From the IMG/VR virus record IMGVR_UViG_2077657010_000001, positions 1 to 64,000 of that record: DNA of 64,000 bases; one strand, 5' to 3'. The notes beneath the pieces are model-generated. The model saw only the letters and a program-made list of their open reading frames with translations. It searched no databases and was not told where the DNA came from. How positions within the stretch are numbered: the stretch's first letter is position 1; every line of letters begins with the position of its first letter. Position numbers and translations under genes: made by a program. Below are positions 1,671 through 34,489 of the stretch, piece by piece. This DNA is from a virus.

Positions 1671-3245
1671 ATGGATTACAAACTCAATCAAAAGGTTCTT
1701 TTTGCTAAACAGTTATCACAAGCAATTAATGTGCCTTTAAAAGCCAATGAGTTCACCTACCGGAATGTGGAAAGCACACATAACCGATATGGATTCACAT
1801 TACCTGAAGTTAAATCTACTGGGTATATTTCAGAATGTCCGCATGCGGCATACATTCAACCGCCAAATTGGAGTCACCGTGATCATTGTGAATTCATAGC
1901 ACGTGAAGTGTACGATATAAAAAGCCCTTATATTACAATCCACTCAAAGTCTGATAACTACGCACATATTTATGTGGATGGGGTAGAGGTAGACTATACG
2001 GATAGGTATGATCAGGTGTTTACACACCACATGAATATCGAACCTGGTGAGCATGTCTTTACGTTTTATTCTAAAGAAGATACAGGCGGAGCAGGGTTAG
2101 CGTTTGCGATAAAAGATGGCGACACATGGCACTATTCATCAAAGAACACTAAATTAAAAGATGTGACCGATTGGCCTGAGAAAGAATACTTGGAATATTC
2201 ACTCGACACCAGCGTTGAAGTAGACGTTACCGTCTCTCCCTCTGAAGTTTACGGTGACTACGTAGAATTCGATTACCAACGTGTTCCCGTCGAACAAGTA
2301 TTCGGCCTGCTGGATGCAGATGACGCTAAAGGCGTGCAGTTACCTTATGATATTTCCAACATCAGTATGCTATCAGATACCATCGACAATTTTGAGCAAG
2401 TCTTTAATCAGTGGTATCGATTCAGTCACAATGCCAGTGGTAACTATCCCGCAAATAGCAGTGAGTTAGATGCATGGGTATATGAGCCTGAGTATGACTG
2501 CATTCGCTCTACCGTCAACTCCAACACATTCGTTGGGTTCATCTCTGATAAGAAGTCTGATAATTATACCTTTAGCACCATTGTCAGTTCGAATAATGGG
2601 GATGATGATACGATCGCTATTAACCTTGCCGCCCATGTCCAAGGTGAATATGATGATAAAGAGCATACACTCGCAGTTATCTGTAGTCGGGGTGGTACGG
2701 GCCAGTTTGTTCGTGTCCATTGTGACTATCTACAGGTAGGTCAAACAGCGATACGTGTACTTGATTCGGATTCTGCCGAGGCCAACAATAACCCCGGTTG
2801 GCAGCCTTGGTATGCCCACATCCATGCAGTAAGAGATGGCGATCTCATCGATGTGTATGTGAAAATGTTCAGCATGCCCGACGGTGACCGGGACACTGAA
2901 CTAAAAGGTGTGGTGGATGAACGCAGTGAGCTCTCCGAAAACGATATGATTGCCGAAGGGTATCTATATACCACTATCAACCTTGCTGAAGACGCTCCAA
3001 TGTTCCAAGGCCCATCGAGGTATGGTTATGGCCAATTCTCACAATCCAATGCACGTTTTTGGAACATCCGTCGACCCAACGATGCGCCGGAAGTAACAAA
3101 ATCTCTAGTGGATTGGTTTAAAACACACTACGGGTTTAACATTACCGGTGGTGGGACCAATGTCGAAAACTTAGGCGCAAACAGGTTTAAGATTAATTTC
3201 GATAGTCTCGTCTACAAAGGCAGTTTAGAGCTTATCCCACAATAG
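1671..3245 (+). CDS. Tail-fibre-like lectin-domain protein, 524 aa
   Basis: The start has a TGGAG ribosome site. Residues about 240-467 form a module also found near the C-terminus of the two giant fibres on the other strand. All three share a start of type F-x-x-V-F-x-x-W-x-R-x-S, an SxxFVGF/SSWVGF segment, a DDD-I-x-(I/V)-x-L-A segment and an end of type GY(G/I)xxSQxNxxxxNIxRP. The pattern looks like a beta-sandwich (concanavalin-A-like) carbohydrate-binding fold, which is inference. Residues about 80-160 look like another beta domain (YAHIYVDGVEVDY; HVFTFYSKED). It lacks the anchor domain of the other fibres and lies far from them, so it may be a separate receptor-binding or decoration protein. 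No chaperone-like gene follows. Confidence 0.65.
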   Translation: MDYKLNQKVLFAKQLSQAINVPLKANEFTYRNVESTHNRYGFTLPEVKSTGYISECPHAAYIQPPNWSHRDHCEFIAREVYDIKSPYITIHSKSDNYAHIYVDGVEVDYTDRYDQVFTHHMNIEPGEHVFTFYSKEDTGGAGLAFAIKDGDTWHYSSKNTKLKDVTDWPEKEYLEYSLDTSVEVDVTVSPSEVYGDYVEFDYQRVPVEQVFGLLDADDAKGVQLPYDISNISMLSDTIDNFEQVFNQWYRFSHNASGNYPANSSELDAWVYEPEYDCIRSTVNSNTFVGFISDKKSDNYTFSTIVSSNNGDDDTIAINLAAHVQGEYDDKEHTLAVICSRGGTGQFVRVHCDYLQVGQTAIRVLDSDSAEANNNPGWQPWYAHIHAVRDGDLIDVYVKMFSMPDGDRDTELKGVVDERSELSENDMIAEGYLYTTINLAEDAPMFQGPSRYGYGQFSQSNARFWNIRRPNDAPEVTKSLVDWFKTHYGFNITGGGTNVENLGANRFKINFDSLVYKGSLELIPQ

Positions 3246-15187: not shown

Positions 15188-15814
15188 CTATTTTAAGTAT
15201 GTGTCGTAGTACTCACTGACTTCGCGCAAGCATCGTTTTGTCCACCCGTAGTAATAACGCTCATTCTTCTCTTTAGGTCGACGTAATGTAATGTGCTTCA
15301 TGTAGTGCATTTGGTCGGCATTCATCTGACCCGCTAATACATACATGGCATCATTCAATCCACGGTGCTCAACAAGCGCATCAATCGCACCTTTCGTTTT
15401 AAGGCCATAGATGCCATCTACAGCGATATTTTTCCAAAGTAGGCCTCTGTTATTCAAACAGTTCAACGTCTCTTGTAAGGACGTTACAGGCTCATCTGAA
15501 CCCGATTTAAGTCCCCAGCGAAACATTGACTTGGCTAATGCTTTAGAATACTGGCAAATCTCATTAAGATGCATGGGATGCCAGAACTCACTTTCGTAGA
15601 TGAAGTATGCCATGGGCTGAGTAAGATTTTCCATCGTACCATCCCAACCAAAGCCATCCGTCAATGACTTTCGATATGCATGGGCTAACCCAACCGTAAT
15701 ACCATGGTTAGTCTCACCACCTAAATCGATAGGATCATTACTATAACCCCCCTCGATATTTGTCTCATCACGAATACATTCATGACAGAAACGTTTTATT
15801 TCTTCTGTTTTCAT
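15188..15814 (-). CDS. Endolysin, GH108 N-acetylmuramidase with PG-binding domain
   Basis: This enzyme would cut the glycan strands of peptidoglycan at the end of infection. The N-terminal half has the GH108 signature EGGYSNDPIDLGGETNHGIT, with the catalytic glutamate at residue 21. The C-terminal half matches the peptidoglycan-binding domain usual in this family (VDGIYGLKTKGAID; then YYYGWTKRC). The length of 208 residues is typical. No signal peptide is seen, so it should need a holin or other membrane lesion to reach the wall. It is the last gene of the 19-kb minus-strand operon and overlaps the preceding chaperone-like gene by four bases, so lysis and late tail-fibre synthesis are probably co-expressed. 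Confidence 0.92.
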   Translation of the reverse strand: MKTEEIKRFCHECIRDETNIEGGYSNDPIDLGGETNHGITVGLAHAYRKSLTDGFGWDGTMENLTQPMAYFIYESEFWHPMHLNEICQYSKALAKSMFRWGLKSGSDEPVTSLQETLNCLNNRGLLWKNIAVDGIYGLKTKGAIDALVEHRGLNDAMYVLAGQMNADQMHYMKHITLRRPKEKNERYYYGWTKRCLREVSEYYDTYLK

Positions 15815-16269
15815 ATAAAATCCTTATTTAAAATGTCTGGCTTAACTGGCCAGTGTATATTGGCAGGGAAGTCTGGCGTGGTTGCGAGCGACTTCAACTT
15901 ACGCCTATAGTCTTTTAACGTAGACACCTCTGCTTCTGACAATTCACTATATATTAGTGGGTTAGATGCAAATTGGTCAACCTCATTTATTTTATCACGT
16001 ACCAAGTCACGTGCAAACTCACCATTATCATCGATGAGGTGCGGGTGTATGGTCACGTCTAAACAGATCTCATTATCATCATCCCACACAGCGTGCATCG
16101 GATCCACGCCGTTCAATATTTCAGCTATAGTCTTGTTATATACAACAACCACATCAACATCAGCGAAAGATTTATCGGATATGTCAGTTCCTATGTAATT
16201 AATCGTATTATCTGGATTAATCATCACGAAAACACCGTTCACGATATCCTGCGGTACCGCCATCTCCAC
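15811..16269 (-). CDS. Probable tail fibre assembly protein, 152 aa
   Basis: The C-terminal part follows the pattern of tail fibre assembly chaperones: a helix with YRRKLKSLA, then a short spacer, then a P-x-x-I-x-W-P-x-x-P end (FPANIHWPVKPDIL). Such proteins help fibres trimerise and fold. The gene starts 31 bases inside the end of the fibre gene 16239-17630, so it is translationally coupled to that fibre, its likely client. Two related small genes follow two other fibres in this block. Confidence 0.65.
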   Translation of the reverse strand: MEMAVPQDIVNGVFVMINPDNTINYIGTDISDKSFADVDVVVVYNKTIAEILNGVDPMHAVWDDDNEICLDVTIHPHLIDDNGEFARDLVRDKINEVDQFASNPLIYSELSEAEVSTLKDYRRKLKSLATTPDFPANIHWPVKPDILNKDFI

Positions 16270-17630
16270 CTCCTATCTTCTTGGCGATTTTGGTGGTATG
16301 AGTACATACCCACAATAACGCAACCGTCTGGACATGTCCAGTTGATTGGACGGTCGAAATTATTTACATAGCCAGTGATTTGAACAGGTCCCCACACAAT
16401 GCCAGGCGGGTCTGCTAATAAGTTGTCAACATCCGATCGAATCTTTGCAATGTTCTTGTTCTGTAAACCCTGCTCATCTTCAATACGGTTGATGTCTTGC
16501 TTAGCCTTAGTTATATTGTCCGTATTACTGCGGATGCGCCTGTCGTTATCTGCGATTTTTTTATCTTGATCGTCATTGCGGGCACTTTCTTCCCGTACGT
16601 CCGACTGCAGCGAGTTTATCTCACTGTCTTGCTCATCATTACGACCTGACTCACGAGCAATGGCTGACTTATTAAGACTTATTTCTTGTGCCAGTTCGAC
16701 GTCCCGCTCCTTGAGGCCTTTAATCTCATTATCGATGGCATTTAGGCGATCGTTTATAGTGTCGATGTTACGATTCAAGTCGGCTAACAATTTCTGGAAA
16801 CGATTTAACCGTTTCTCATTAGCTGCCAACTGACGTGCATTGTTATTGAATGTTGACACCAATGTATCGATACGCTGATGAGTCTCATCAAAGGCAGTCT
16901 GAATGGCTTTGAAACGAGGCTCTAGATCGTTAAACGTCTTGCCAATGTCTTCTAAGAATTGATCAATCTCTTCTTTGAAGTAAGCATTGGCCTGATGTGC
17001 AGTAACGCGGTGTGGATTATTGTAATCTGCAAGGTGCAGCCTGTGACGTTCCCTGAAGTCCGCCTCTAACTCGTTGAGACGTTTACGGATAGCCGTCATT
17101 TGGACATTGTCACCCACCATGAGGGTATCACCAATCTGCACAAGCATACTGATGATAAACTCAAACCCATACACATCACCGATATCATGGATGTGTGGTG
17201 GTGGGGTAAATAACTCAGGTTTGTTAATCACCTTACGCCAATAGATGTTTCGGTTATCGATTTCCAACTCGTCGATAGCATCTTGGATAGCTTGTGCAGA
17301 GTGTGCAAAAGGACCACCCACAATGTTTGCTTCCACAACGATGTTTTTACTGACCTTTGTATTATGGATAACAATGACACCCTCAATATCCTTACCTGGT
17401 GTGAGTTTAGATAAGTCATCAAAGTGCATGACACAGGTGTAGTCATCGTCGGGCGTCAAAGGTATATTAGACCCCTCTTCTTTGATTACCACATCATCAG
17501 CGTAGAATGGCCCATTCTTTAAAGAAAAGGCACGGTATTCTTCATCGCCAAGTGTGTGTTTTTCAGTGACGCGGTTTTCTTTCCGTGTCCCAGAGAAGTC
17601 TAATGGGTAAATAATCTTTTTCAAACCCAT
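16239..17630 (-). CDS. Tail fibre, coiled-coil stalk with dermatopontin-like tip, 463 aa
   Basis: Residues 1-165 are the anchor domain shared with the 18166-19803 fibre (IIYPLDFSG, YRAFSLKNGPFY, VIHNTKVSKNI, RNIYWRKVI, PHIHDIGDVYGF) and more distantly with the three giant fibres. Then comes NPHRVTAHQANAYFKEEID, a motif typical of phage fibre repeats. Residues about 225-400 are a long coiled coil with repeating NDRIN/RNDDQD units. The last 45 residues have the pattern NNFDRPINWTCPDG, SYHQNRQEDRRWRWRY, which closely recalls the dermatopontin family (FD-x-P-x-x-x-x-CP and H-x-N-x-x-EDRRW). Dermatopontins bind glycosaminoglycans or sugars, so this is plausibly the receptor-binding tip. Confidence 0.85.
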   Translation of the reverse strand: MGLKKIIYPLDFSGTRKENRVTEKHTLGDEEYRAFSLKNGPFYADDVVIKEEGSNIPLTPDDDYTCVMHFDDLSKLTPGKDIEGVIVIHNTKVSKNIVVEANIVGGPFAHSAQAIQDAIDELEIDNRNIYWRKVINKPELFTPPPHIHDIGDVYGFEFIISMLVQIGDTLMVGDNVQMTAIRKRLNELEADFRERHRLHLADYNNPHRVTAHQANAYFKEEIDQFLEDIGKTFNDLEPRFKAIQTAFDETHQRIDTLVSTFNNNARQLAANEKRLNRFQKLLADLNRNIDTINDRLNAIDNEIKGLKERDVELAQEISLNKSAIARESGRNDEQDSEINSLQSDVREESARNDDQDKKIADNDRRIRSNTDNITKAKQDINRIEDEQGLQNKNIAKIRSDVDNLLADPPGIVWGPVQITGYVNNFDRPINWTCPDGCVIVGMYSYHQNRQEDRRWRWRYRRIS

Positions 17631-17668: not shown

Positions 17669-18160
17669 TTAGTATCTCTTATTTAAATACTCTACCTGTT
17701 CAGGGGTTAAGTTAAGTACGGGTATCTGTACATTATCGGGGTAACCCTTTTCACGACTGAGGTCACGTAGCGACTGTCGGTACTTTCTGATGTTCTTAAC
17801 GTCAATGTCGTTATCTTCAAATATATTAATCAACACATCGGCATCGCACAAACATTTTCGTACCTCTTCATCCATATACTGTTTATTGACATCTTCGGTA
17901 TCTATGATAGCCTCTTCGGAGCTACCTACCTTTGATGTCTGAATCAGTGCCCAAGCGCCATCATCCTCTACTTCAGGGGGCGCACCATCCACGTCCAAAT
18001 ATACTGGAGACATTCCATCATTGGCAGGAGGTGGTGGATTTCTAGTTGCACCTCTAGGTATCAAATACTCACCAGCATTAACAGGTGACTGGTAGGCGAC
18101 ATCTTCCCCTAGGTACCTACCATCAGTCATGCTATAGTTGTACACAGTAATATAATCCAT
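17669..18160 (-). CDS. Probable tail fibre assembly protein, 163 aa
   Basis: The middle has the feature typical of fibre assembly and fibre-tip adaptor proteins: AYQSPVNAGEYLIPRGATRN followed by prolines (PPPPAND). The C-terminus has the chaperone pattern (IRKYRQSLRDLSREKGYPDN). It lies five bases after the collar-domain fibre gene 18166-19803, its likely client, and before the dermatopontin-like fibre. Molecular role inferred from pattern and position. Confidence 0.7.
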   Translation of the reverse strand: MDYITVYNYSMTDGRYLGEDVAYQSPVNAGEYLIPRGATRNPPPPANDGMSPVYLDVDGAPPEVEDDGAWALIQTSKVGSSEEAIIDTEDVNKQYMDEEVRKCLCDADVLINIFEDNDIDVKNIRKYRQSLRDLSREKGYPDNVQIPVLNLTPEQVEYLNKRY

Positions 18161-18165
18161 AATCC

Positions 18166-19803
18166 CTACCTGTACCTAATATATACTGGGAAGGATTTGT
18201 TCCGCACGCGTGTTTCTTTAATCCCATTTGAGCCAAGATTCATCTCGATAAATGTACCCCATCTATCACTGTTCCCGCCTGCGGCACTAACCGACCAGCG
18301 GCCCACAATTCTAAACGGTCCACTTCGGCTGTACCAGTTATTTGACCGGTCCATTGAAGTGAATCGACCTTTACTGTTTTTGATATATGCATTATGATCT
18401 TGATAACTACCTATACCTCTTCCAGGGTCGATACCTGCGCCATTATCAAGAGATCTCATAAATAGGCCGCGCACGTCGGGTAATCTGAACCTACTACCAC
18501 TCTTACCGTAAACCGTACCAATAACCTGATACAGCTCAGGAAAATCATCACGTTCTAACCACGCTCCATTGGCTAAAAGTACCTGATCTTCGGGCGACGG
18601 AGTGTTTGCAAAGTGCACTAACTCACCCACACCACGGCGTGCTAACAGCTTCTTAATTTCTTCTATATCTTTCTCGTTGTTTTTAACGCGGTTTAACAAG
18701 GATTCTATTGCATCGTCTTGTTCGTGGTTTTTCTCCTCCACGTCTACAATGCGTTGATATATCTTAATGTCCTCCGCCTTTAGCTGACGTATCTCACCAT
18801 CTTGGTCGTCATTGCGTTCAGTCTCCTCTTGGATCCTCTCCGCATTGCGATCAATAGATGCTTGCAGTTCTTTGTCGCGTTCACGTAGCCCTTTAATAGC
18901 CGCCCAGATTTCTTTGATCTCATCTTTGATGGCATCAATTTGACGCGTTAAATCAGCAAGGAGTTTTTGGAAGCGATTGAGTTGTTTATCTTGGCGACTC
19001 TGCCCCGCATTGATGCTACTAATAACACCTTGTATGGAACCAATAGTATCATTAATTTCACCAATACGTCTGAATACATCTGAAAACGTTTCTGCATTCT
19101 CACCGAATTGCTTTTGTACATCTTCTAAGAACTTATCGATTTCTTCTTTGAAGTAAGCATTGGCTTGGTGTGCAGTGACTTTATGCGGGTTCTTCTTATC
19201 TTCGAAGTGTTCTTTAAAGCGGCGTTTCAAATCATCTTCGAGTGCTTTAATACGCTTTTTGATGTCAACCATCTGCGCATTGTCGCCAATCATTAATACG
19301 TCGGTCATCTGTCCGATGATATCAACGATGAACTGAAAACCAAACACATCGCCCAAATCATGGATATGGGGCGTGGGTTGAAATAAGTCTGGTTTCTCAA
19401 CGACTTCTCGCCAGTATTGGTTACGGTTATCTAATTCTAACGCTTCAATGGCTTGCTGAATGGCTTCAGCAGTATGTGTATATGGGCCACCAACAATGTT
19501 GGCATGGACTTCTATATCCGTACTGACCTCAGGGTTGATGATAACAATCACCCCTGCAATCTCTAACCCTTTTGTCAGCATTGCTAACTTGCTGTAAAAA
19601 AATACGCATTCATAATCGATACCACGCCGTAATGGTTTGGTGCCGTTGCGTTCTTTAACAGTGAGTCCTTTGGTATAGAAGGGCCCGTGTTTCAATGAAA
19701 ATGCACGGTACTGGTTAACGCCAATAACATGCCTCTCACTGATCCGGTTAGCTTGTCGCTCCCCGGTTAAATCTAGCGGGTAGATTAACTGTTTGAGGCT
19801 CAT
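18166..19803 (-). CDS. Tail fibre with collar domain tip, 545 aa
   Basis: Residues 1-165 are the anchor domain shared with the 16239-17630 fibre; NPHKVTAHQANAYFKEEID follows, then a coiled-coil stalk (about 230-390). The C-terminal 155 residues are a phage tail collar domain (pfam07484-like): LLANGAWLERDDFPELY, GTVYGKSGSRFRLPDVRGLF, MRSLDNGAGIDPGRGIGSYQ, ending SFPVYIRYR. Collar-domain tips occur in receptor-binding fibres. The start codon is firm because the paralogue begins the same way, yet no ribosome site lies just upstream: a 9-bp hairpin separates it from an AGGGGG sequence. Confidence 0.92.
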   Translation of the reverse strand: MSLKQLIYPLDLTGERQANRISERHVIGVNQYRAFSLKHGPFYTKGLTVKERNGTKPLRRGIDYECVFFYSKLAMLTKGLEIAGVIVIINPEVSTDIEVHANIVGGPYTHTAEAIQQAIEALELDNRNQYWREVVEKPDLFQPTPHIHDLGDVFGFQFIVDIIGQMTDVLMIGDNAQMVDIKKRIKALEDDLKRRFKEHFEDKKNPHKVTAHQANAYFKEEIDKFLEDVQKQFGENAETFSDVFRRIGEINDTIGSIQGVISSINAGQSRQDKQLNRFQKLLADLTRQIDAIKDEIKEIWAAIKGLRERDKELQASIDRNAERIQEETERNDDQDGEIRQLKAEDIKIYQRIVDVEEKNHEQDDAIESLLNRVKNNEKDIEEIKKLLARRGVGELVHFANTPSPEDQVLLANGAWLERDDFPELYQVIGTVYGKSGSRFRLPDVRGLFMRSLDNGAGIDPGRGIGSYQDHNAYIKNSKGRFTSMDRSNNWYSRSGPFRIVGRWSVSAAGGNSDRWGTFIEMNLGSNGIKETRVRNKSFPVYIRYR

Positions 19804-19842: not shown

Positions 19843-20241
19843 TTACATGTCTACTGGAGTTGGGCGCTTAGGCCATTTGATATTGTCTGGATCGGTAATG
19901 TCCATCTCATACAATTCAACCCGATACTTGCGCCAATCATTTAACATGCTTTCATATTCAGGCTTTTTACTGAATTCTTTTAAATCGGTAAGGATGTTAA
20001 TCTGCTCTTTTGCAAACGCCAGACTGTCAAGACGTTCACTTTTAGCACGGTCAATTCGCATCCCATCAGTAATTGTTAATGGAGCGATATAATAATCGCC
20101 CGTATCATTAACACCTAGCTCGATTTGAGTAATGTCATGATCGTCGTCACTTTGTAAGACGATCATACCCTCTGGGATATTGACATCACCATCCGCCGTC
20201 CAAAGACACTCTTTTGTCTTTTCATCGAATCCATAAATCAT
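19843..20241 (-). CDS. Probable tail fibre assembly protein, 132 aa
   Basis: The C-terminal half has the assembly-chaperone pattern: a helix with FAKEQINILTDLKEF, then LNDWRKYRVELYEMD and IKWPKRPTPVD. The N-terminus (YYIAPLTITDGMRID) also fits. It follows the giant fibre gene 20245-25347 by three bases and so probably serves that fibre. It resembles the genes at 15811 and 17669 in position and in the final WP-x-x-P pattern rather than in close sequence. Confidence 0.75.
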   Translation of the reverse strand: MIYGFDEKTKECLWTADGDVNIPEGMIVLQSDDDHDITQIELGVNDTGDYYIAPLTITDGMRIDRAKSERLDSLAFAKEQINILTDLKEFSKKPEYESMLNDWRKYRVELYEMDITDPDNIKWPKRPTPVDM

Positions 20242-20244
20242 TAT

Positions 20245-23200
20245 TTAAACCTCTACATTTTTACGTGCGACTAAGATATATTTAAGGTATGAACTACCAC
20301 CGGACGTTTTAACTTCACCGCCATTGTACACAGACTCCATGCTTGCTTTAATACCATTATCCGATAGTGCGCCGTATATTAGTTTATGGCCACTGTCAGT
20401 ATAGTAACCTCGGTCGTAGCTAAAGTACACTGTACATTCACTCGCTTTAAACCCTGCGGGGACTGGCACGTTAGCACCCGGTCTAACAAACCCTTGTGTA
20501 AAAGCCGTTAACAGTCGGTTCTTTTCCGAGAATAGACGGAGCATGTCTGCAGATGCATAGTAGTTATCAATCTGCTCATCTGGTCTAAAGATATTACGGT
20601 AAGTAGAGTTTGGCTGTGACATTGAACCGTATCCGAAGCTACCGCCGGAACGGAACTTTTGAAGTTCTGGGTGCTCCATAACATTAAATTTCAATGTACT
20701 GACAATATCACTTGGACCATGCTTAGATAGGTCAGTAGATTTGACAAACCCTGTTGCACTCACCGTGAAATCATCACCTACCCGGTCAGCGGTAATACGT
20801 GACCAGTTACCACTCCACCCGCCTAAATTGCCGGTCCCGAGTGCGGATTTTTTAATCAACTTACGCGAGGGTTGGTGGTAGTTGTACCAGATGTCAAACC
20901 GAGACGCATTTTTAATGTGTCCTTCGGTTGAGCGACTCCTCACCGCACACAGTGTATGTTCCTGCCCATCAACAACCTTATATGCCAAGATGATAATAAG
21001 GCCATCATTATCATTGTGCGGCGACCCTACGAGGGTGTCAAAGTGATACTCCCCGACTTCTGTTGGCGATACAAACCCCACGAATGAACCGGAGTTAATA
21101 GGACAGATGATAGCATCGTTACCAGCATCATATTTCCACGATGATAATTCATCCGATTTGGCGGGTTGATTGCTACTATTGAAGATGTGTGAGATACGTG
21201 TCCAATTATCAAACACCTCCTTGAATGTTGGGATTGATAGGTCGTGAAACATCCCCATGTTACGGACTTTACCTAGACCGAATGCATCTTTAGAGACATT
21301 ATTAATCCCGCCATGCGCCATCTTGTTTTTGATGTGCTGTTCGAGCTCATAAATATTCCCCATACGTGTGGCACGTTCGACCTGGATATCAGTAATTCGA
21401 TCGTCCCCGGTAGTACAGTACCCCACATACATGCGATCTTTCCTGTCACTCAACTTACTCTCGTATAGAGTATACTGACCCTTACCATCGACCACTTCGA
21501 CATAAATGTAGAAGGTCTTATTTTTATACCCGTTGATTCCCGGATAGTCGGTGAGATCAATACTCTGTTTAGGGAGAATATAAGTGGTGCCATTGGTATA
21601 GAAACGTTCATCATTAGAGAAGTATATCACCCATCCAGATTTCACTTCAGACAACAGCAAGAGCTTAGTACCCTTACCCGCCATGTCTTTGTTCGGCTCA
21701 TAGGTGGTTGCACTTATCCCGTATGTTGAATACGAATCTTTATACCATAACAATCCTAGGTTTGGGTGGTATCCCCAACCATAGTTTCTATATGTATGTG
21801 CCTGATTAAAAGAGGACTTGATCGTATTATTTTTATTTTCATCAAGTATGAACATCGGCGTTTTCTGACCACTGTTACCAACATAATAGTAACTTGGTGC
21901 TAAGTTTAATGCGTAAAACCAGTTACCGTCATCTAACTTCACACGGATGGGGTTGGCTATACTATCGTCTTTTGTATCGATACCAGTTGGCGAGCCAATT
22001 TTACTGTACGATACCTCACGCCCGACAGCAATCGACGATACTGAACCACCCTCGAATGCTAAGTCAACACTATAAACTGACATCCTACCGGATTTTACAC
22101 CATTATTTTGTACTATGTACCAAATATACACAACAAAGGCATCATGCGCCCCTCGCCAATCCCCGAAGACCGTCATATTCACACGATCATTATCAGGATC
22201 CTCATTGTGTAGTTCAGAGGTACGGACTCTTAGGTCTGAGAGTAATTGGTTGATAACACCACTATCCCAATCCACAGGCTCTATGTAATTACCATTATCA
22301 TACTTAGAGTAGCATGTCCGCTCTGACTGGTTTAATACAAAACCCACGTTCTCACCCACATCCCAACATCTGGGAATGCGGATTATCTTACGGTAGGAGT
22401 CAAACGACTCACGATATGTCGTCGGTCCCCAACCATCGATGCCGTCATAACTGCCATTGATATCAACCGCAGCCACGAAATCCCCACCTGTACGTTGTCT
22501 ACAGACCATCTTATCATCACTAATAAATGTAACAGACCTGGCACCTTTCCCCACAATACTGCCGAAATTACCATTGAAATACTTACGGGATAGGAGGCGT
22601 AAGCTACCAGCACGATTAGCCAAGTTCATATCGTGCCACATGGTGCTACCGGCATTATGTGTAAATGTACATAATCGCCTGATATGATATGCACCTACTG
22701 TTACTGCCAGATGATCTGTTAAAATGTGTGCGGTTGATGTATGGTTAGGGGCAGCATACGGCCACATGCCACCAGTATTGAACTTTGATGTAAAGCCACT
22801 ATCTTTCAGTATGTTGGGATACATGCTTTCAGTGTCGCATGTAATCTCGAAAGTATCTAGGTCTACTGTAATTGTTGCCCCAATATTTCCATAAGCACTT
22901 CCAGTAGGGCTTGAAAAATATGACCGACCTGACTGCGTAACCCTCAGTTTCCCATCTTTCAAATACGCTAAGGTGTTACGGTGAGCGTGGGCGACGTTGT
23001 TGGAACCTGTGAATCTATCATCCTTTCTGAGTATTAGTGGCTTATCGTTTGGATCGCTTGAATGTCCAGTGTTTGTAAAAACAAACATATCCACATTCTC
23101 TTTACGGTTCCCGTGGAAATCCACTCCACTCAATAAGACCTCATTAAAGGCGACAGGCTTACCATCCTCGATATCCTTTCGCAATGCACGCGACATTCGA

Positions 23201-25347
23201 TATGTGAGCCCACCATTTGCAAGTACTAGATATGTACGATATACATAAAACTCATCCATCTCAATATTAGATGAATTATTAGCAGGGACATTACCATTAG
23301 ATAGTACTTCCGCACCTAAATGACTATCGGCGTTCATTGTGCCATTTTGAATCACAACATACTGCTTTCCATTAGAGGCCATCATTAAGAAAACACCACG
23401 GCCTCCACGAATAATTCTAGTTGCGTAAACACCCTGTGGTAGGAATTTAGGTTTATAAGGGACGATGGTGGAAGTAGTGTCCTTCATTACCCCCTCCACT
23501 AATTCGGCATACCAATAATACACACCTTTAGTGCCACCCATCCCCTGTCCATTACGCAGTGCCACTAACCTACCATCTGACTCAATAGATACTGCAGTGG
23601 CACCATAACCATCCCAACTGTCCTTATATGCACCATAGACGGGCACAGGCAAGTAGCCAAACCCACCATATTGGGTAGCATTCAAAACTTGTGGCGGCAT
23701 CATTTCTTCAAGGCGACTTTCACCATCTTTGAGGTCATCAACCATGCCATCTAATAGCAACATCGAGGCAGCTTTGTCTTTTACCCCACCGTACGTCTCA
23801 GACGTCTTACCGATGCCATAAGTTTTTGTGTCAGCAATAGGCATGTTTTTGAATTCGTCTAAGTCATGCTTATGGTCACTTTCTGCGTACTCAGATGCTG
23901 CATCTTTAAACGCATCACTTGCTACTTTCTCATTGGGCGCTGTGTTATCGACATTACCTAACCCAAAATCACTTTTAGTCAATGTGATATCTTTATTAAG
24001 ACGCTTACCACTAACCTTGACTGTATCGTCAACATATTTGTCCGCCAGACGTTTAAGCTCACCTACCGCATATTCACTAGACGCTAATTTAACAGAATCA
24101 CTGAATATGGAATGTGATAATCTAAAAATACCTTCTGACGTTAAGGTAGCGATAGGATAGAACACGTAGCCTGTCAGCGGTGATGATTCAATACCACGTC
24201 CAGATAAATGGATAGTGTCTGACGTTTTAACGTGCAGTATTGTGTCTTCGTACTCTGGGGGTGGTACGAAGTCTTCCATGTTCCCGACATGAATAAGGTA
24301 AAATCCGTTAAATACACACGACTCATCATCGGTCGCCTGACCGGTACTGTGCACGGTGAGCATGTTTTCAGCGGCAGCCACGGCAGTACCGAAACCATCT
24401 TCGCCTTCTTGTTCACGGTCATCACTTTTAAGTGTAATCTCACCATTAGAGATAATATTCATCATCCCATCATTAAGACGAATGGTAGACACACCCATTT
24501 TGTTGCGGATAACCGCATTCTCACCATTGAATGTGAGTCGCCCCTCTAACGTATCACCTACCAATTTAAACAACTCTTCAGTGTCGTCAGCAGTGATGCC
24601 TAGTTCATTTACCACATTGACTAACTGCGCTAGTGTGTATCCATATACTTTCAACGCATCCATTGCTTTTGCGTCTTTATGGAGTGCCCCTAATTGTGTA
24701 TGTGTGGGTTGGTGGGGCGCATACCGGTTTTCGTGGTAAGGTACATCTTCGTCTAAAATGCGTGTATTGAGCGATGTAAGTCGTTCAATTAATTGGTCAA
24801 AGGTTTCCTTTTCCCATTCGTTTAATTGTTGTAGTTTGGCTCTCAGGCGGTCTAATGCCCCAGTAATTGGATCTTCTTCAATGGCCTGTTCGCGGTTGGT
24901 CGGCGCGGACACATCGGGGATGATTTTTTCGTATTTCATCACCGAGACCCAATCAAGGTTACGTGGGTCTTTTAAATCAACCTGAGAGAGGTGTTCTTGG
25001 ATATGGCGTTGTGATACCAAATAACGACTGCCTAGGGTACGGTACTGTTTAAACTTAACCTTACCTTCAAGGCTGTGATCGTTTAACATCACACTACCAA
25101 AAATTGGCCGACGGTTCTTTTCTGAGGCACTCTCGAAATAGTGTCCAAGGTAGTAGTCAAGGCCTTCTAATAATTCACGGTCACTTTCTACGTGAACTAG
25201 AGTGAAATCTTTACGGTAGAATGGTGCGAATGTAGGTATGATACAACGATGTTTATTCGGATAATCCGAGATAGTGTGTACCTCGTCACGAACAACGTTA
25301 CTATCTAACGTTGCATCCGAGTCGTAAGGATATGCGTAATCAGACAT
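20245..25347 (-). CDS. Giant tail fibre, 1700 aa
   Basis: I chose ATG 25347 (MSDYAYPYDSD); the ATGGAG four codons earlier supplies its ribosome site. Architecture from the N-terminus: anchor domain (about 1-115: FAPFYRKDFTLVHVESDREL, GLDYYLGHYFES); a hinge with PHQPTHTQLGALHKDAKAMD (about 220); fibre repeats with GNVDNTAPNEKV and HKHDLDEF (about 460-500); a large beta-rich middle (about 560-1250) sharing NATQYGG and LPVPV-x-G-x-YK with the 29229 fibre; a YIYV segment (about 1270-1350); the lectin-like module (about 1374-1589); and a unique C-terminal tip of about 110 residues. It matches the 1719-residue fibre domain for domain, so the two are old duplicates with different tips. A chaperone-like gene follows. 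Confidence 0.9.
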   Translation of the reverse strand: MSDYAYPYDSDATLDSNVVRDEVHTISDYPNKHRCIIPTFAPFYRKDFTLVHVESDRELLEGLDYYLGHYFESASEKNRRPIFGSVMLNDHSLEGKVKFKQYRTLGSRYLVSQRHIQEHLSQVDLKDPRNLDWVSVMKYEKIIPDVSAPTNREQAIEEDPITGALDRLRAKLQQLNEWEKETFDQLIERLTSLNTRILDEDVPYHENRYAPHQPTHTQLGALHKDAKAMDALKVYGYTLAQLVNVVNELGITADDTEELFKLVGDTLEGRLTFNGENAVIRNKMGVSTIRLNDGMMNIISNGEITLKSDDREQEGEDGFGTAVAAAENMLTVHSTGQATDDESCVFNGFYLIHVGNMEDFVPPPEYEDTILHVKTSDTIHLSGRGIESSPLTGYVFYPIATLTSEGIFRLSHSIFSDSVKLASSEYAVGELKRLADKYVDDTVKVSGKRLNKDITLTKSDFGLGNVDNTAPNEKVASDAFKDAASEYAESDHKHDLDEFKNMPIADTKTYGIGKTSETYGGVKDKAASMLLLDGMVDDLKDGESRLEEMMPPQVLNATQYGGFGYLPVPVYGAYKDSWDGYGATAVSIESDGRLVALRNGQGMGGTKGVYYWYAELVEGVMKDTTSTIVPYKPKFLPQGVYATRIIRGGRGVFLMMASNGKQYVVIQNGTMNADSHLGAEVLSNGNVPANNSSNIEMDEFYVYRTYLVLANGGLTYRMSRALRKDIEDGKPVAFNEVLLSGVDFHGNRKENVDMFVFTNTGHSSDPNDKPLILRKDDRFTGSNNVAHAHRNTLAYLKDGKLRVTQSGRSYFSSPTGSAYGNIGATITVDLDTFEITCDTESMYPNILKDSGFTSKFNTGGMWPYAAPNHTSTAHILTDHLAVTVGAYHIRRLCTFTHNAGSTMWHDMNLANRAGSLRLLSRKYFNGNFGSIVGKGARSVTFISDDKMVCRQRTGGDFVAAVDINGSYDGIDGWGPTTYRESFDSYRKIIRIPRCWDVGENVGFVLNQSERTCYSKYDNGNYIEPVDWDSGVINQLLSDLRVRTSELHNEDPDNDRVNMTVFGDWRGAHDAFVVYIWYIVQNNGVKSGRMSVYSVDLAFEGGSVSSIAVGREVSYSKIGSPTGIDTKDDSIANPIRVKLDDGNWFYALNLAPSYYYVGNSGQKTPMFILDENKNNTIKSSFNQAHTYRNYGWGYHPNLGLLWYKDSYSTYGISATTYEPNKDMAGKGTKLLLLSEVKSGWVIYFSNDERFYTNGTTYILPKQSIDLTDYPGINGYKNKTFYIYVEVVDGKGQYTLYESKLSDRKDRMYVGYCTTGDDRITDIQVERATRMGNIYELEQHIKNKMAHGGINNVSKDAFGLGKVRNMGMFHDLSIPTFKEVFDNWTRISHIFNSSNQPAKSDELSSWKYDAGNDAIICPINSGSFVGFVSPTEVGEYHFDTLVGSPHNDNDGLIIILAYKVVDGQEHTLCAVRSRSTEGHIKNASRFDIWYNYHQPSRKLIKKSALGTGNLGGWSGNWSRITADRVGDDFTVSATGFVKSTDLSKHGPSDIVSTLKFNVMEHPELQKFRSGGSFGYGSMSQPNSTYRNIFRPDEQIDNYYASADMLRLFSEKNRLLTAFTQGFVRPGANVPVPAGFKASECTVYFSYDRGYYTDSGHKLIYGALSDNGIKASMESVYNGGEVKTSGGSSYLKYILVARKNVEV

Positions 25348-25382
25348 CCCATACTCCATGTCAGTTAATGTTATTAATCAAA

Positions 25383-25411
25383 GGATTCGTAGGCTAAGTG
25401 ACTACGAATCC
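25383..25411 (-). terminator. Hairpin terminator between giant fibres
   Basis: GGATTCGTAG and CTACGAATCC form a perfect 10-bp stem with a 9-base loop, 10 bases after the stop of 25422-29216. On the minus strand it is followed by a short T-rich run (TTTGATT), so stopping may be partial, leaving some readthrough into the next fibre. Confidence 0.7.
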
Positions 25412-25421
25412 CTGTTATGTG

Positions 25422-28400
25422 TTAAATATCACGTACCCCTATTAGTAAAAAGTTGACAAGCATAGGCTGAGTAATGTCGCCGCCAGCACCATCCTTCTCC
25501 CTCTTGTAATAACAGTCTGCAACGATGTGTCTGTCAGGGCTAGTCATGTCAATATTTCCTGTCATTTCTTTTCCTGATAGGTACGACTTCAACCCCATCC
25601 TAACACCGTCAATAGGGTTATTCTTGTTACTTTTATTCCCCCACCGTCGGATGCCATAATAAGCGATGTATCTTCGACACCCTTTTGGCAGTGGCAGTAG
25701 TCCAGATTTGGAGGTATCAACATATCCTTTCACTACGGGTAAATTTGAACCGTCTCGAATTGACATGTACACCCCTTCCGCTGTAACGTACTTATCACGT
25801 AGTCCACCGATATCCGAACCAATACAGTCAACAGTAAACGATAGTGCGTCATTACCTCCACGTGGGCGGGTAACAATGCCGACGTTCCCACCATCGATGG
25901 CGTTTTTAACAATACCGCTACCGTAGCCGACTTCTTCACGGCCACTATTGTAGATCTGTTCCTTTGAACCATTGTAGTAGTTAACCGTATATTTCATCTT
26001 AATGGCATCTGGAGCAAACACCATATCTGCAATATACTGATACAATTTACGGTCCTGTACGGCGTCGGTCTGTATATCAATGTTGTAAGCAGGGACGCCG
26101 CCATCTAAGCGGTAGCGAATAGTGACATAAAAGGTAGCTGCTGTGTTAATCTCAATGCTCTTAACAATGTACGATTTGATAACAGTTACGATATCGCCAG
26201 TTTCGTCAATAAGCAGTATCTGGAAATAATGTTTGTTGTCAGTGTCCCGACAATCAATGCGTGCGATAACGAAATAGATATTGTCGTCTTCGTCAACATA
26301 TTTGCCAATCACTGCGCCTACATCACGTATGGCGTTATCACCTGACATCGGTGCGGTTATTTTCCAAGAAACCAGTCGTTCGCCCTCCTCGTTGATAAAG
26401 GTGGGGTCCATAAAGTTCATGGTTGGGCTGGCTGCTGCAAAATAATGATTATCATTGGAAGTGCCTTTTAGCTCAACCGACACGCCATCATTTAGGTTGA
26501 CACCACTTTGGATGTAGCGATTCTCTGTCACATTGACTTCGTTAAAGTTATGTGCCATTACCCATTTACGGAAACCGTTATGTGAGCCATCGTCGACATG
26601 GTTGACTGCCTGTTCGTTCTTCACTAGACCCAGCCCGATAGTCGACGGATCTCCCATATCACCAGCATCTGAGTTCATATGTGCTTGAGGGTCGGTTTTA
26701 TGCTCTTCAAGCTCCCTAAACTCACCAACAGACGTCACAGGCTCAGGGACCAATAAATTTCGACCATGGTAATTACTGCGGGCTACTCTATCAATACTCC
26801 CCCAATATTCAGTGTTTCCTGGCTCGGGTAGCGGATTTGATTCGTCGTAAGGGTAACCATCTCTATCTTTGAAAACATAAAGATCCCAATTAGTAGTATC
26901 TGGTTTAGCGAGAACATTACCATCCTTATCCTCCACTTTTAGCAGCGCATTGTACCCACCACGACCACTATCGACGCAGATGGCGGCGAGCGTCATGGTA
27001 TCCCTTGGCGTGCTAACCACATACGGATCACTGTAAAAGCCATATCGAACTGGCTGCGGATTGCCATCAATGTAAACATAAGTGGTGTCGTCTACTTTTG
27101 ATGTAATCACACATTCGTCAACCCCTGTAGTATCTACAACTGTCTTGAAGACGACAGGCCCCCACCGAAACGGTTGTAAGTCAAATCGAGACCCTTCCAA
27201 TACTGGAGTCGATAATGGTCGCGCTTCATCACCCACACTGCTGGTTGTCCAGATAATGCCTTGATCGTCCGTTTCTATAGTTAACACATGCATCCGACTT
27301 GAATTATTGGGATATAACGTCACATCTACAGTGTATGTCAACGATCCCCCAATCACGTTGATATAAACATAAAAAATATTATTTACATGATTTTTAGGGT
27401 ACAGAGCTTTCAAGTCAAACGTCTTAGAAGGCATTTCGGTCTCACTGTCCGAATACATGATTTCGTTTTTATAAAAAACACAATCACTTCCAATTTCAAA
27501 CGTGAAACCCGTATACGGAATGCCGCTAGGTGCAGACCAGTACGATAAGTCAATAGCCGAGGCAGGCATCAATCCACGGAGACTATCTTCCGCATTACTG
27601 ATTTGCTCATCGATTTGTGTTATGACGTAAGGGGATGCTGCAGTGCTGCCTGTTTTCACCTCTTCGATATCATCAGCGATACGAAATATACCCCAAGTAT
27701 CTTCATCGGCCACATCCATATCCATATCTTTAAGATCGTGAACATGACCCTTTTTAGAAAACTGGTCTAGGTATTCCTGCTGTTTGATAGATATAGGTTT
27801 ATCTTTATCTGCAGTATTATCTACCTTGTCTAAGTAGATATCCGTTTTATCAAACGACATACCGTCGCGAATAGGGTAGCCATTGATAGTCTGGCTGTCT
27901 TTAACACGCCCACCCAGCCGCTCACGTAACATATATAACACTTTAGGTGTTGGTGCCGTGGCGATTGACTTTGAGTCAGGGTCGTCTGACAGTTTAATGA
28001 CCCCTCGCTTTGTCAATGTTGCCGTTACATATTTAGCATGTGCCTCTAACTTATTGTCCGGCCTAGAGCTCCCTGTAATATCTACAGTATCCGTATTTTC
28101 AGAAACAACACGCATGCCGGTACCACCCAACTTTTTCAGCATCTCACGCACATTTTCAACGTGGAGTAGTTGGTGGCCATTATACTTAATCGTATCATAC
28201 TGGTAGTTATTGCCTGTCGACACGATCTCAAGGACATTGTTACCGGCTTGCATGGTAACATTGGCATTTCCTGAAGCGTCATCATCGGCATATACTGCCG
28301 TTAACCCATCAGACGTGTATTCAATATTACCGTTATCTAAGGATACCTTACTCGTCCCGCTACTGCTCTTGATTGATAATGTACCCCCATCCAATGTGAA

Positions 28401-29216
28401 ATCATCATGGATGGTTTGATTAGTGGCCTTTTCTAAATATCGGTCTATATCGTCTTGAGTGATGCCACGACTATTGATATACTCTGCTAACTCGAGCAGC
28501 GTTAGGGTGTATGCTTGCATCGCAGATGCCGCGCGACCATCTTCAGGAAGTGCGTCTGCCTGTGTGTAACTAACCTTATGTGGATTAGCTTTATTCGCAA
28601 TGTGGCCTGCAAAGTCATACTGGTCTAAGATGCTATGGACTTGATCGATACGACTATTTAAATAATCGACCGCCTCAACGTCTGACGTGTCCATCGCTTC
28701 CTTAACCGCCTGCGTGATACCATCAATCGATGCTTCCACCCCCTCTTTGTTCACAAAATCTGCATAGTGCTGTTTGTGACGGTGTGGTGTGAATGTCATT
28801 GGTCTATCCAATAGACGTTCATATGGCGTCTTCACCGGGTCTGTGAGGACATTTGCAAGACGTGTAAGTACATCACTGCGGATACCAACAAACGTGTGGC
28901 CTACCGTCCGATAGTCAAGGATGAACTCACCCTTTAGTTCGGGGTTGATGATAGATATCCCCCCAAATAGCTTTCTCCCTGCGATGCGCCGTGCATCTTT
29001 TAGCTCCCATGCAAAGTTAAAGTCACTTCCCTCATTTAACTCTACTTGAGAATCTGCGTGAATTATTTTAAAATCATGTTTAAAGAACGGTGCCAATTCT
29101 GGGACAATCACACGGTACGTATTGTCGTTAGACATGACCATGTGACTCTCACCATGAATGTGGCACTCATCCATCGTACCCATTGGGTCGTGTGGATAAG
29201 TGACACGTATACTCAT
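25422..29216 (-). CDS. Large tail fibre, 1264 aa
   Basis: The start has a TAGGAG ribosome site. It has the shared anchor (ELAPFFKHDFKIIHADSQVE, GGISIINPELKGEFILDYRT) and hinge (NPHKVSYTQADALPEDGRAA, YINSRGITQDDIDRYL), then the fibre segment with DNTADKDKPISIKQQEYL and a HKTDPQAHMN-type linker about residue 840. The last 400 residues differ from the other two giants and lack the lectin-like module; they are beta-rich and end in PDRHIVADCYYKREK and a hydrophobic NFLLIGVRDI. It is therefore a third fibre type on the same anchor. No chaperone-like gene follows; a terminator does. Confidence 0.88.
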   Translation of the reverse strand: MSIRVTYPHDPMGTMDECHIHGESHMVMSNDNTYRVIVPELAPFFKHDFKIIHADSQVELNEGSDFNFAWELKDARRIAGRKLFGGISIINPELKGEFILDYRTVGHTFVGIRSDVLTRLANVLTDPVKTPYERLLDRPMTFTPHRHKQHYADFVNKEGVEASIDGITQAVKEAMDTSDVEAVDYLNSRIDQVHSILDQYDFAGHIANKANPHKVSYTQADALPEDGRAASAMQAYTLTLLELAEYINSRGITQDDIDRYLEKATNQTIHDDFTLDGGTLSIKSSSGTSKVSLDNGNIEYTSDGLTAVYADDDASGNANVTMQAGNNVLEIVSTGNNYQYDTIKYNGHQLLHVENVREMLKKLGGTGMRVVSENTDTVDITGSSRPDNKLEAHAKYVTATLTKRGVIKLSDDPDSKSIATAPTPKVLYMLRERLGGRVKDSQTINGYPIRDGMSFDKTDIYLDKVDNTADKDKPISIKQQEYLDQFSKKGHVHDLKDMDMDVADEDTWGIFRIADDIEEVKTGSTAASPYVITQIDEQISNAEDSLRGLMPASAIDLSYWSAPSGIPYTGFTFEIGSDCVFYKNEIMYSDSETEMPSKTFDLKALYPKNHVNNIFYVYINVIGGSLTYTVDVTLYPNNSSRMHVLTIETDDQGIIWTTSSVGDEARPLSTPVLEGSRFDLQPFRWGPVVFKTVVDTTGVDECVITSKVDDTTYVYIDGNPQPVRYGFYSDPYVVSTPRDTMTLAAICVDSGRGGYNALLKVEDKDGNVLAKPDTTNWDLYVFKDRDGYPYDESNPLPEPGNTEYWGSIDRVARSNYHGRNLLVPEPVTSVGEFRELEEHKTDPQAHMNSDAGDMGDPSTIGLGLVKNEQAVNHVDDGSHNGFRKWVMAHNFNEVNVTENRYIQSGVNLNDGVSVELKGTSNDNHYFAAASPTMNFMDPTFINEEGERLVSWKITAPMSGDNAIRDVGAVIGKYVDEDDNIYFVIARIDCRDTDNKHYFQILLIDETGDIVTVIKSYIVKSIEINTAATFYVTIRYRLDGGVPAYNIDIQTDAVQDRKLYQYIADMVFAPDAIKMKYTVNYYNGSKEQIYNSGREEVGYGSGIVKNAIDGGNVGIVTRPRGGNDALSFTVDCIGSDIGGLRDKYVTAEGVYMSIRDGSNLPVVKGYVDTSKSGLLPLPKGCRRYIAYYGIRRWGNKSNKNNPIDGVRMGLKSYLSGKEMTGNIDMTSPDRHIVADCYYKREKDGAGGDITQPMLVNFLLIGVRDI

Positions 29217-29228
29217 ATTACGCTCCTA

Positions 29229-32200
29229 TTAAGTGCGTTTTACATTAATTCGGTCGTCGGTGAAATACGTCACAGTGTAATGGAGTGGGTATTTAGTATG
29301 ATACACAGTCCAACTCACCATTGCCTTGACATACACCTTAGCAAGGATATTGCTACCTGCATCCTCGGTACGGAATAAGCTTACAGAAATACCTGCGCCA
29401 GAATCTTGAGCTTTTGATGGGTTGATTTGGACGATATACTTGTAACCTTCCATCCCCTCAGCTTTAGGGATGAGTAGCTCAGACCATTGATCGTCATCTG
29501 AATCCGTACCCGGCATCATTACCTTCCCCGATTGGACATGCATCCGATTGGACCAACTGTGCAGGTTACGGTACAGCTCCATGGATGCGTAATACCCACG
29601 ACCATCTTCATCAGGGCGAATGATGTTACGCCATGTTGAGTTCGGTTGCGAGCGCGCTATATATCCAAACTTATTCTCACCTCGGAACATCTTCAGATCA
29701 GCATTACTTGATATATCAAGCGTATGCTTAATATCTGTACCGCCTTGCCCTCGGAATTTGGTGGCTTCAATTGTGAAAATATCACCGACACGTGTTATTG
29801 ATAATACACGTTCTGGAATTTGATCCCAGCCATATTTACCACTATGACCTTTAAAGCTAGCTAACACATTACTCTCATTGGGTGTAGAGTGTCGTAAATA
29901 CCCGTGAACGCTATGAGTATCTGTACCACACACATCGAATGATAACATATGCGGCTCGCCATCAATTTCCTTATATGCAAGTATTACACCAATGAAGTCA
30001 TCGTCCGCACTTGTAGATGACACACCTGTAATGAAACGGTAGTCACCAACCACATCAGGACTGACAAAACCGACCCATGAGGAAGAGTTGGTGGTATTAC
30101 GCATCTGGTCTTTCGATGCGTTAAACGACCACGTTTCCAACTCCTTAGGTATTGCTGGGAACGAATTGCCCGCTTGGTATGAAACACGCTTCCAGGTATT
30201 GAACACTTCCTTGAATGTCGCAACCTTCAGGTCATGCTTCATGGGCTTATTCTCAACCAACCCTAACCCTAAACTGTCTCGGTTGATTTTAGACATATCT
30301 AAGTCGTGTGGTGTTGGGTCTTCTAAGTGTTGCTGGAACTCTCTAAAACTACCTAGACGTGTCACACGTTCGGCCTCTAGTTCTATAATACTAGTATCAT
30401 CGGTTTTACAATAACCAATATATACAGTATCTGAACTATCACCCACCTTATCCGGTCTGATGATGTATCGTGGATTTCCTCCCTGCGCAGTCACATATAA
30501 GTAGAATGTGTTCGACTTATAGGTTGTTGGGAAATTGTCCGTGAGATCAATAGCGGTTTCAGGGACATTATACACTACGCCACTTGTAAAGAATTTAATC
30601 TCTTGTGTGAAATAGATATTCCACCCAGAGGCGACTTGTGATGTATGTAAAACAACTTTACCATGTGTAGTACCATTATCGATAAAATCCACCCAGGTGT
30701 CTGCAGTTTTACCGATTTTGTTACCGAGCACTGCTGTGAACGAGTTATCTTGGATTTGCTGGACAAGACCATACTCTTTGGTGACGCTCAGAGCGCGATT
30801 GGCATAATAACTATAGGTATTATGTCGCTTAAACTTATCCACCTCGCCTGTGTCTAAATCAACGACCGCCAAAAACCCATGGTGTCCAGTATTAGCGTGT
30901 AATGCTAAGCCCTGATTGAACGCGACCAGTACCTTGCCCGCTACCCTATCGTACATGATACCACCATTGGACACCCAGCTACGTGGATAACTGGACGTGC
31001 CGCTAGGACTGGTTATTGTTCTCGGCTCGATTATATAATCTTTAACCTTAACATTCCCGACATCTCCCTCTCTCGGACAGTCCTCTAAAGTACCCGCGCA
31101 GTATGTCGATAGATAACCGCCCCCTATCTTATCATGTAACCCTCCACCGATAAAGAATGGCGGGATAGCTTTATCTTTAGGTATAAGGATAACTGCGCGC
31201 GCATATTTAAACGGGTGATCTGTTTTAATTTTCTTTAGCTTTTCACTCACCTCGCGTTCTAACGATTGTAGGTTATCATCAGTGATGGATAGCTTACCGC
31301 TGAAATCAAACCCATCACCCGCAGTGTAGAAGTTTTCTTTGACATGACCATTAAGGACACCGCCAATTAACTCCTCTTTATCGCCATCGATAACGTAAAC
31401 ATTCCTACGCAATCTAATATCATCATCCTTTGTACGGTCAGTGGTCGGGCCAAAACCACCCAGTCCATTTTTGTAGGTATAGTTAGGCTCATAACGGCAA
31501 AGATTGGAGCCATTATCTGCAAGCAGATAGTTGTTAGGTAGGAATGACAAGTGCTTTTGCATCGTTGTTACAATACTACCAAAGTTACCTACAATTCTAC
31601 GGGAATTCCCAATATGATCAATGCGACGTGTATCAGCATTGAGACTATCGAAATAACTATCCGCTTCCCACGATTGGGCAACTACTTTGGGTGTCCACTC
31701 GTTAAACGTTCGCATCACAAAAGCGTATTTACCGTCAGAAACTTCTATACCATATGTGTTACCACTGTGACCATACATCCGCTGAAAGGTACTATTGCGC
31801 GTCGGCCCGCCATACGCCCCTTTTTCACGGCTAACATAAAACGGGAAGTTATTATTAGGATCAACGACCTGAGTGTTGTTGTCTAGGTTTATAGTAACAC
31901 TATATGACCAATTACTGCGGTGTGAGCCGTTCGAACTGTTGTGATAAGTTCCAACCGATACAAATAAGCGTAATCTATTACCTTCCAACCAACTTGCTAT
32001 TCCAAGACCATTCCAAGTAATGTTGATATTGTATTCGGAAGATTCCCTCACACACACCACATTTTCATTAGGATCGTCCGACCAAGATTTATCTGCAAGT
32101 TTTAACTCATGTCCCGATCGCGGCTCGCCAAAGAAGTTGTCGCCACTAAATGTAACTTCTTCAGGGATAACGATGTTGAAATTGTCAAACTCACTTAGCG

Positions 32201-34388: not shown

Positions 34389-34489
34389 ATGTGTTACCTC
34401 TAAATAGTTAATCTTTATACCGAGTGGCCTTTCCATCCGCACCACCCGCACCTACATATTATGACATCCACATTGCTTTTGGAGTACAC
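34389..34489. promoter_or_regulatory. Divergent intergenic region with promoters for both sides
   Basis: These 101 bases separate the start of the 19-kb minus-strand fibre block from a plus-strand gene, so they should hold promoters in both directions. On the minus strand I see CGGTATAAAGATTAAC about 15-30 bases upstream of the fibre start, a possible -10-type element. The plus side has CATATTATGACAT. Neither matches the ATATATYAY motif, which suggests a different promoter class for virion genes. Confidence 0.4.

Follow-up and report, generated by a model that had tools for sequence, protein, structure and literature searches.

Why should the tail fibre of a phage end in a repeat of dermatopontin, an adhesive protein that has three such repeats and is best known from the extracellular matrix of animals? 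The question is raised by a gene for a 463-residue protein in IMG/VR virus record IMGVR_UViG_2077657010_000001, which is 98,322 bases long and of which we analysed positions 1 to 64,000 (hereafter, the window). A preliminary description of this DNA had placed a dermatopontin-like tip on a phage tail fibre at 16239-17630; these coordinates are right, and the gene reads on the minus strand, from 17630 to 16239 (Table 1). Profile, genomic context, tip exchange and relatives speak for a dermatopontin-family repeat as the terminal part of this fibre, and we put at roughly 70% the probability that it is a swappable receptor-binding tip served by its own cognate chaperone.

The 463-residue protein is the tail fibre of a phiKZ-like giant phage. 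It aligns at 50% identity across 462 residues with a protein of Vibrio phage pVa-21 that is annotated in that phage's record as a minor tail protein, and it has the head, coiled-coil shaft and distal tip of a chaperone-dependent fibre. The head (residues 1-225) matches phiKZ-like virion proteins (phrog_2163) and has relatives in 223 phage records. The following region (residues 226-408) displays a sharp 3.5-residue hydrophobic period, equalled by none of 1000 shuffles, and draws many coiled-coil Pfam matches, all under the cut-off. In such a fibre, the head would attach to the virion, the coiled coil would form the shaft, and the single dermatopontin repeat of each chain would constitute the distal receptor-binding tip. 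Because of the kinship of the phage, its host is probably a Vibrio or a relative.

The C-terminal residues quoted in the preliminary description, including the EDRRW box, are present, and the profile check that it proposed against the pfam14704 family gave a match of Pfam DERM (PF14704) to residues 418-461, with an expectation value (E) of 6.3e-10 and a score of 39.9 bits (curated cut-off 28.3). What was described as the dermatopontin motif holds as a repeat, but not as a full three-repeat domain: the match covers model positions 52-95, i.e., 44 of the 152 positions of a model whose length takes in three repeats. As each chain bears one repeat only, we refer to a dermatopontin repeat and not to a dermatopontin. 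Five phage proteins of different type pass the DERM cut-off, namely the fibres of the window and pVa-21 and proteins of contigs L004, L006, and L028. The EDRxW-type box reads EDRRW in the window, pVa-21, and L028, and EDRRF in L004; the conserved dermatopontin cysteines are not kept, with two cysteines in the window tip, one in pVa-21, and none in L004 or L028.

It is very improbable that this likeness arose by convergence, from a short strand motif rich in aromatic residues and arginine that is widespread among fibre tips. The composition of the tip (eight arginines and four tryptophans in 51 residues) would agree with such an origin, as would the top template modelling score (TM-score) among the matches listed for a structure model of one repeat, 0.49 to the Mu tail fibre with its chaperone (5yvq), although at an E of 2.2. 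However, the match spans the whole repeat and not the box alone, the DERM cut-off is passed in five proteins, and the alignment scores lie far above those of 2000 composition-preserving shuffles: the tip scores 114 against a three-repeat Pseudoalteromonas protein (best shuffle 48) and 120 against a three-repeat phage protein (best shuffle 61), both of which are described below.

We scanned 50,697 phage records and 2.9 million viral contigs for further carriers of the repeat. The one-repeat tip is found on three unrelated fibre shafts with 59-71% identity to that of the window, and in all cases the similarity starts about 54 residues from the C-terminus. Three unrelated heads bear it: phrog_2163, phrog_31104 (L004 and L005), and the P2-type head PF12571 (L028, L029, and L030), the last in a phage whose DNA has distant matches to the tail genes of ep3 and other phages with contractile tails. 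pVa-21, whose tip is 71% identical to that of the window, is the one carrier that the scan found among the phage records; when the two fibres are compared part by part, the tip is the most conserved (70%), followed by the head (54-63%) and the shaft (34%). The opposite pattern separates pVa-21 from pVp-JHP1101: their heads are 96% identical and their shafts 63%, yet their tips only about 20%, and the pVp-JHP1101 fibre has another domain at its C-terminal end. The chaperone of the dermatopontin tip, present in pVa-21, is absent in pVp-JHP1101, as the next gene there encodes a lytic enzyme. The relatives on viral contigs were recovered with profiles of several tips, whereas scans of these contigs with the single tip gave no match; those with a whole-fibre alignment gave no relatives. 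No match to the tip was obtained in a genome collection, where all motif-pattern matches proved false, and the DERM cut-off was passed in none of about 590 genomes from two phyla picked for convenience, Gammaproteobacteria not being among them. Four candidates (L007, L008, L009, and L032) were rejected as chance pattern matches, and a faint likeness seen by eye in the tip of JG068 came to nothing.

The gene behind the fibre encodes an assembly chaperone with an N-domain at about 16006-16224 and a PF16778 C-domain. Its likely start is the ATG at 16263, preceded by AGGAGG at 16274-16269, where the list of open reading frames has a GTG at 16269; with this ATG, the chaperone gene would begin within the last part of the fibre gene, an overlap of about 25 bases. 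A chaperone follows the dermatopontin-tip fibre in the window, pVa-21, L004, and L028, and each opens with an 'INPDNTVNY'-like stretch. The first 75 residues of these four chaperones match one another at E 1e-15 to 1e-4, and no match was found between their N-domains and those of chaperones serving other tips, including those of the same genome. In the reverse direction, the pVa-21 N-domain alone retrieved only pVa-21 from the phage records, and an N-domain alignment retrieved from the viral contigs exactly the five already known from their one-repeat tips; the telling point of this short-pattern scan is that it brought up no contig in which the N-domain stood without the tip. The C-domain was rejected as a dermatopontin-specific feature, as JG068 and Caulobacter TMCBR2 have it without such a tip. 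At L028:5191-5592, a dermatopontin-type N-domain is found without a recognisable PF16778, pointing to another C-domain or to a frameshift. The adjacent gene thus combines a tip-specific N-domain with a conserved, general C-domain, which fits the published rule (PMC9608196) that such chaperones bind the distal fibre region with their variable N-domain and trimerise through their conserved C-domain. By this rule, the variable N-domain would handle the dermatopontin tip while the conserved C-domain would help unite the chains, and tip and N-domain would be passed on as a pair among unrelated phages, forming a small cassette for host recognition.

We regard it as quite unlikely that the main role of the single repeat is that of a trimerisation cap and chaperone dock, with the host bound by the Collar-tip or the large fibres of the same phage. 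The tip is indeed small, sits at the extreme C-terminus and is tied to one chaperone N-domain, and the phage has several other fibres, all of which would suit a cap. Yet unrelated phages keep the tip and exchange the shaft, a near-identical head with a replaced tip is the usual behaviour of a receptor-binding end, and there are family members whose one chain holds three repeats and that have no fibre shaft. As a swappable receptor-binding tip, the repeat would contact the host, and its ligand may be a surface glycan; binding of sugars or glycosaminoglycans is suggested by its family and its position.

How would a single repeat function where dermatopontin has three? Tail fibres are as a rule homotrimers, and the coiled coil is consistent with a homotrimer here. 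One repeat per chain and three chains give three repeats, as in the one-chain relatives, and the three-repeat domain is probably rebuilt by the homotrimer. Both one-chain relatives that we examined have exactly three repeats. The first, with three tandem repeats in its chain, is the product of a phage gene (L006:1-888) that is truncated by the start of the contig. Directly behind this gene lies an endolysin (N-acetylmuramidase) gene and no chaperone gene, as might be expected if no assembly between chains is needed (one case, 5' end cut). An integrase-like open reading frame is found near this gene. The second is an unlisted 263-residue protein with a signal-like N-terminus on Pseudoalteromonas replicon NZ_CP022523 (L022:2698-3489; DERM E 4e-34). 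The three single repeats of the fibre may come together as a single domain of the dermatopontin type, possibly in the form of a beta-prism. We tentatively propose, at slightly less than an even chance, a 'split' dermatopontin, in which three identical one-repeat chains would form a symmetric counterpart of the three-repeat protein found in animals and bacteria, a beta-prism lectin whose three binding sites are equal, the chaperone would replace the covalent linkage, and the L006 protein would represent the fused form.

Structure prediction lends modest support to this arrangement. A model of a three-repeat protein is poor, with a predicted local distance difference test score (pLDDT) of 42.7, yet each of its ten best PDB matches by Foldseek is to a beta-prism lectin of jacalin type (best E 0.02); no significant match was found among viral structure predictions. 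PDB sequence searches returned no clear relative of dermatopontin. An early, weak profile match (E 0.035) to TgPLP1, whose fold is a three-repeat beta-prism (PMC6294395), was lost with a broader alignment and was discarded. The model of one repeat (pLDDT 69.5) consists of three long strands in a three-stranded sheet, and its moderate confidence on its own would favour another arrangement, in which the repeat of each chain folds alone and the fibre ends in three separate binding units without a rebuilt three-repeat domain. We find this somewhat unlikely, since the presence of exactly three repeats in both one-chain relatives fits a three-fold unit and a lone three-stranded sheet would expose one of its faces.

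Several points weigh against a swappable, glycan-binding tip with a rebuilt three-repeat fold. The receptor role is suggested by position and exchange, and the other fibres of the phage may do the main binding. The reverse search for the chaperone N-domain uses short patterns and sees close relatives only, and the N-domain alignment included some of the sequences that it recovered. Finally, no fold matched the one-repeat model significantly, and the suggested beta-prism draws on a low-confidence model.

The dermatopontin fibre belongs to a cluster of fibre genes (Table 1). The neighbouring Collar-tip fibre is 49% identical to it across residues 1-384, and a chaperone-like gene lies behind each of three fibres: the dermatopontin fibre, the Collar fibre and a large fibre at 20245-25359. 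The minus strand at 20245-34451 encodes three fibre-type proteins of very large size (1704, 1264, and 1740 residues), with an N-terminal head as in the dermatopontin fibre; given these shared heads, the phage has at least five fibre genes with related heads. A 524-residue protein encoded at 1671-3245 on the plus strand has a domain (phrog_21285/phrog_33406) that is also found C-terminally in the large fibres.

Table 1. Dermatopontin-tip fibre, its parts and its neighbours in the window.
Feature	Position	Strand	Basis or remark
Tail fibre gene, 463 residues, C-terminal dermatopontin repeat	16239..17630	-	Open reading frame; phrog_2163 E 1e-69
Head domain, residues 1-225	16956..17630	-	Common to other window fibres and phiKZ-like phages
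Coiled-coil shaft, residues 226-408	16407..16955	-	3.5-residue hydrophobic period
Tip, residues 413-463, one DERM repeat with EDRRW box	16242..16394	-	Pfam DERM; tip alignment
Tail fibre assembly chaperone of dermatopontin tip	15811..16263	-	PF16778 over cut-off
Paralogous fibre; head and shaft of the same type, tip of Collar type without DERM	18166..19803	-	Pfam Collar E 3e-10
Chaperone-like gene behind Collar-tip fibre	17669..18160	-	N-domain unlike that of dermatopontin chaperone
Chaperone behind large fibre 20245-25359	19843..20241	-	Caudo_TAP over cut-off; N-domain unlike that of dermatopontin chaperone
GH108 endolysin, closes fibre cluster	15188..15814	-	Pfam Glyco_hydro_108 E 4e-16

A search of the open-access literature found no paper linking dermatopontin to phages, in line with the earlier remark that no such use was known. 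Swappable fibre tips that come with a chaperone are a known kind of system; what appears to be new here is the family to which the tip belongs and its arrangement as one repeat. If our reading is true, a family known chiefly from the animal extracellular matrix would join the receptor-binding tips of phages, and this locus would offer a clean case in which a fibre tip moves between unrelated phages along with the chaperone half that matches it, as well as a small symmetric system for working out the fold and ligand of dermatopontin.

Compared with known systems, the fibre shares with dermatopontins (PF14704) the repeat itself, including the EDRRW box, at a score over the curated cut-off, but it is part of a virion fibre with one repeat per chain instead of three, and its relatives in L004 and L028 are without the cysteines. 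With jacalin-type beta-prism lectins and TgPLP1 (PMC6294395) it would have in common a three-fold internal symmetry, as the top ten Foldseek matches suggest, whereas the lack of a significant match, the low model confidence and the lost profile match set it apart. The gene order resembles that of Mu and of gp24-gp25 of cyanophage Pam3 (PMC9608196), in which a fibre is followed by a two-domain chaperone with a variable N-domain and a conserved C-domain. In the Alteromonas phages A5 and V22, whole fibre-chaperone modules have been exchanged between distant marine phages (PMC10579305); there the chaperones are of the DUF4376 type, whereas those of the dermatopontin tip are PF16778, and here it is the tip and chaperone only that recur, on unrelated shafts. 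Common to both is a host-recognition module that is shared, together with its chaperone, by distantly related marine phages.
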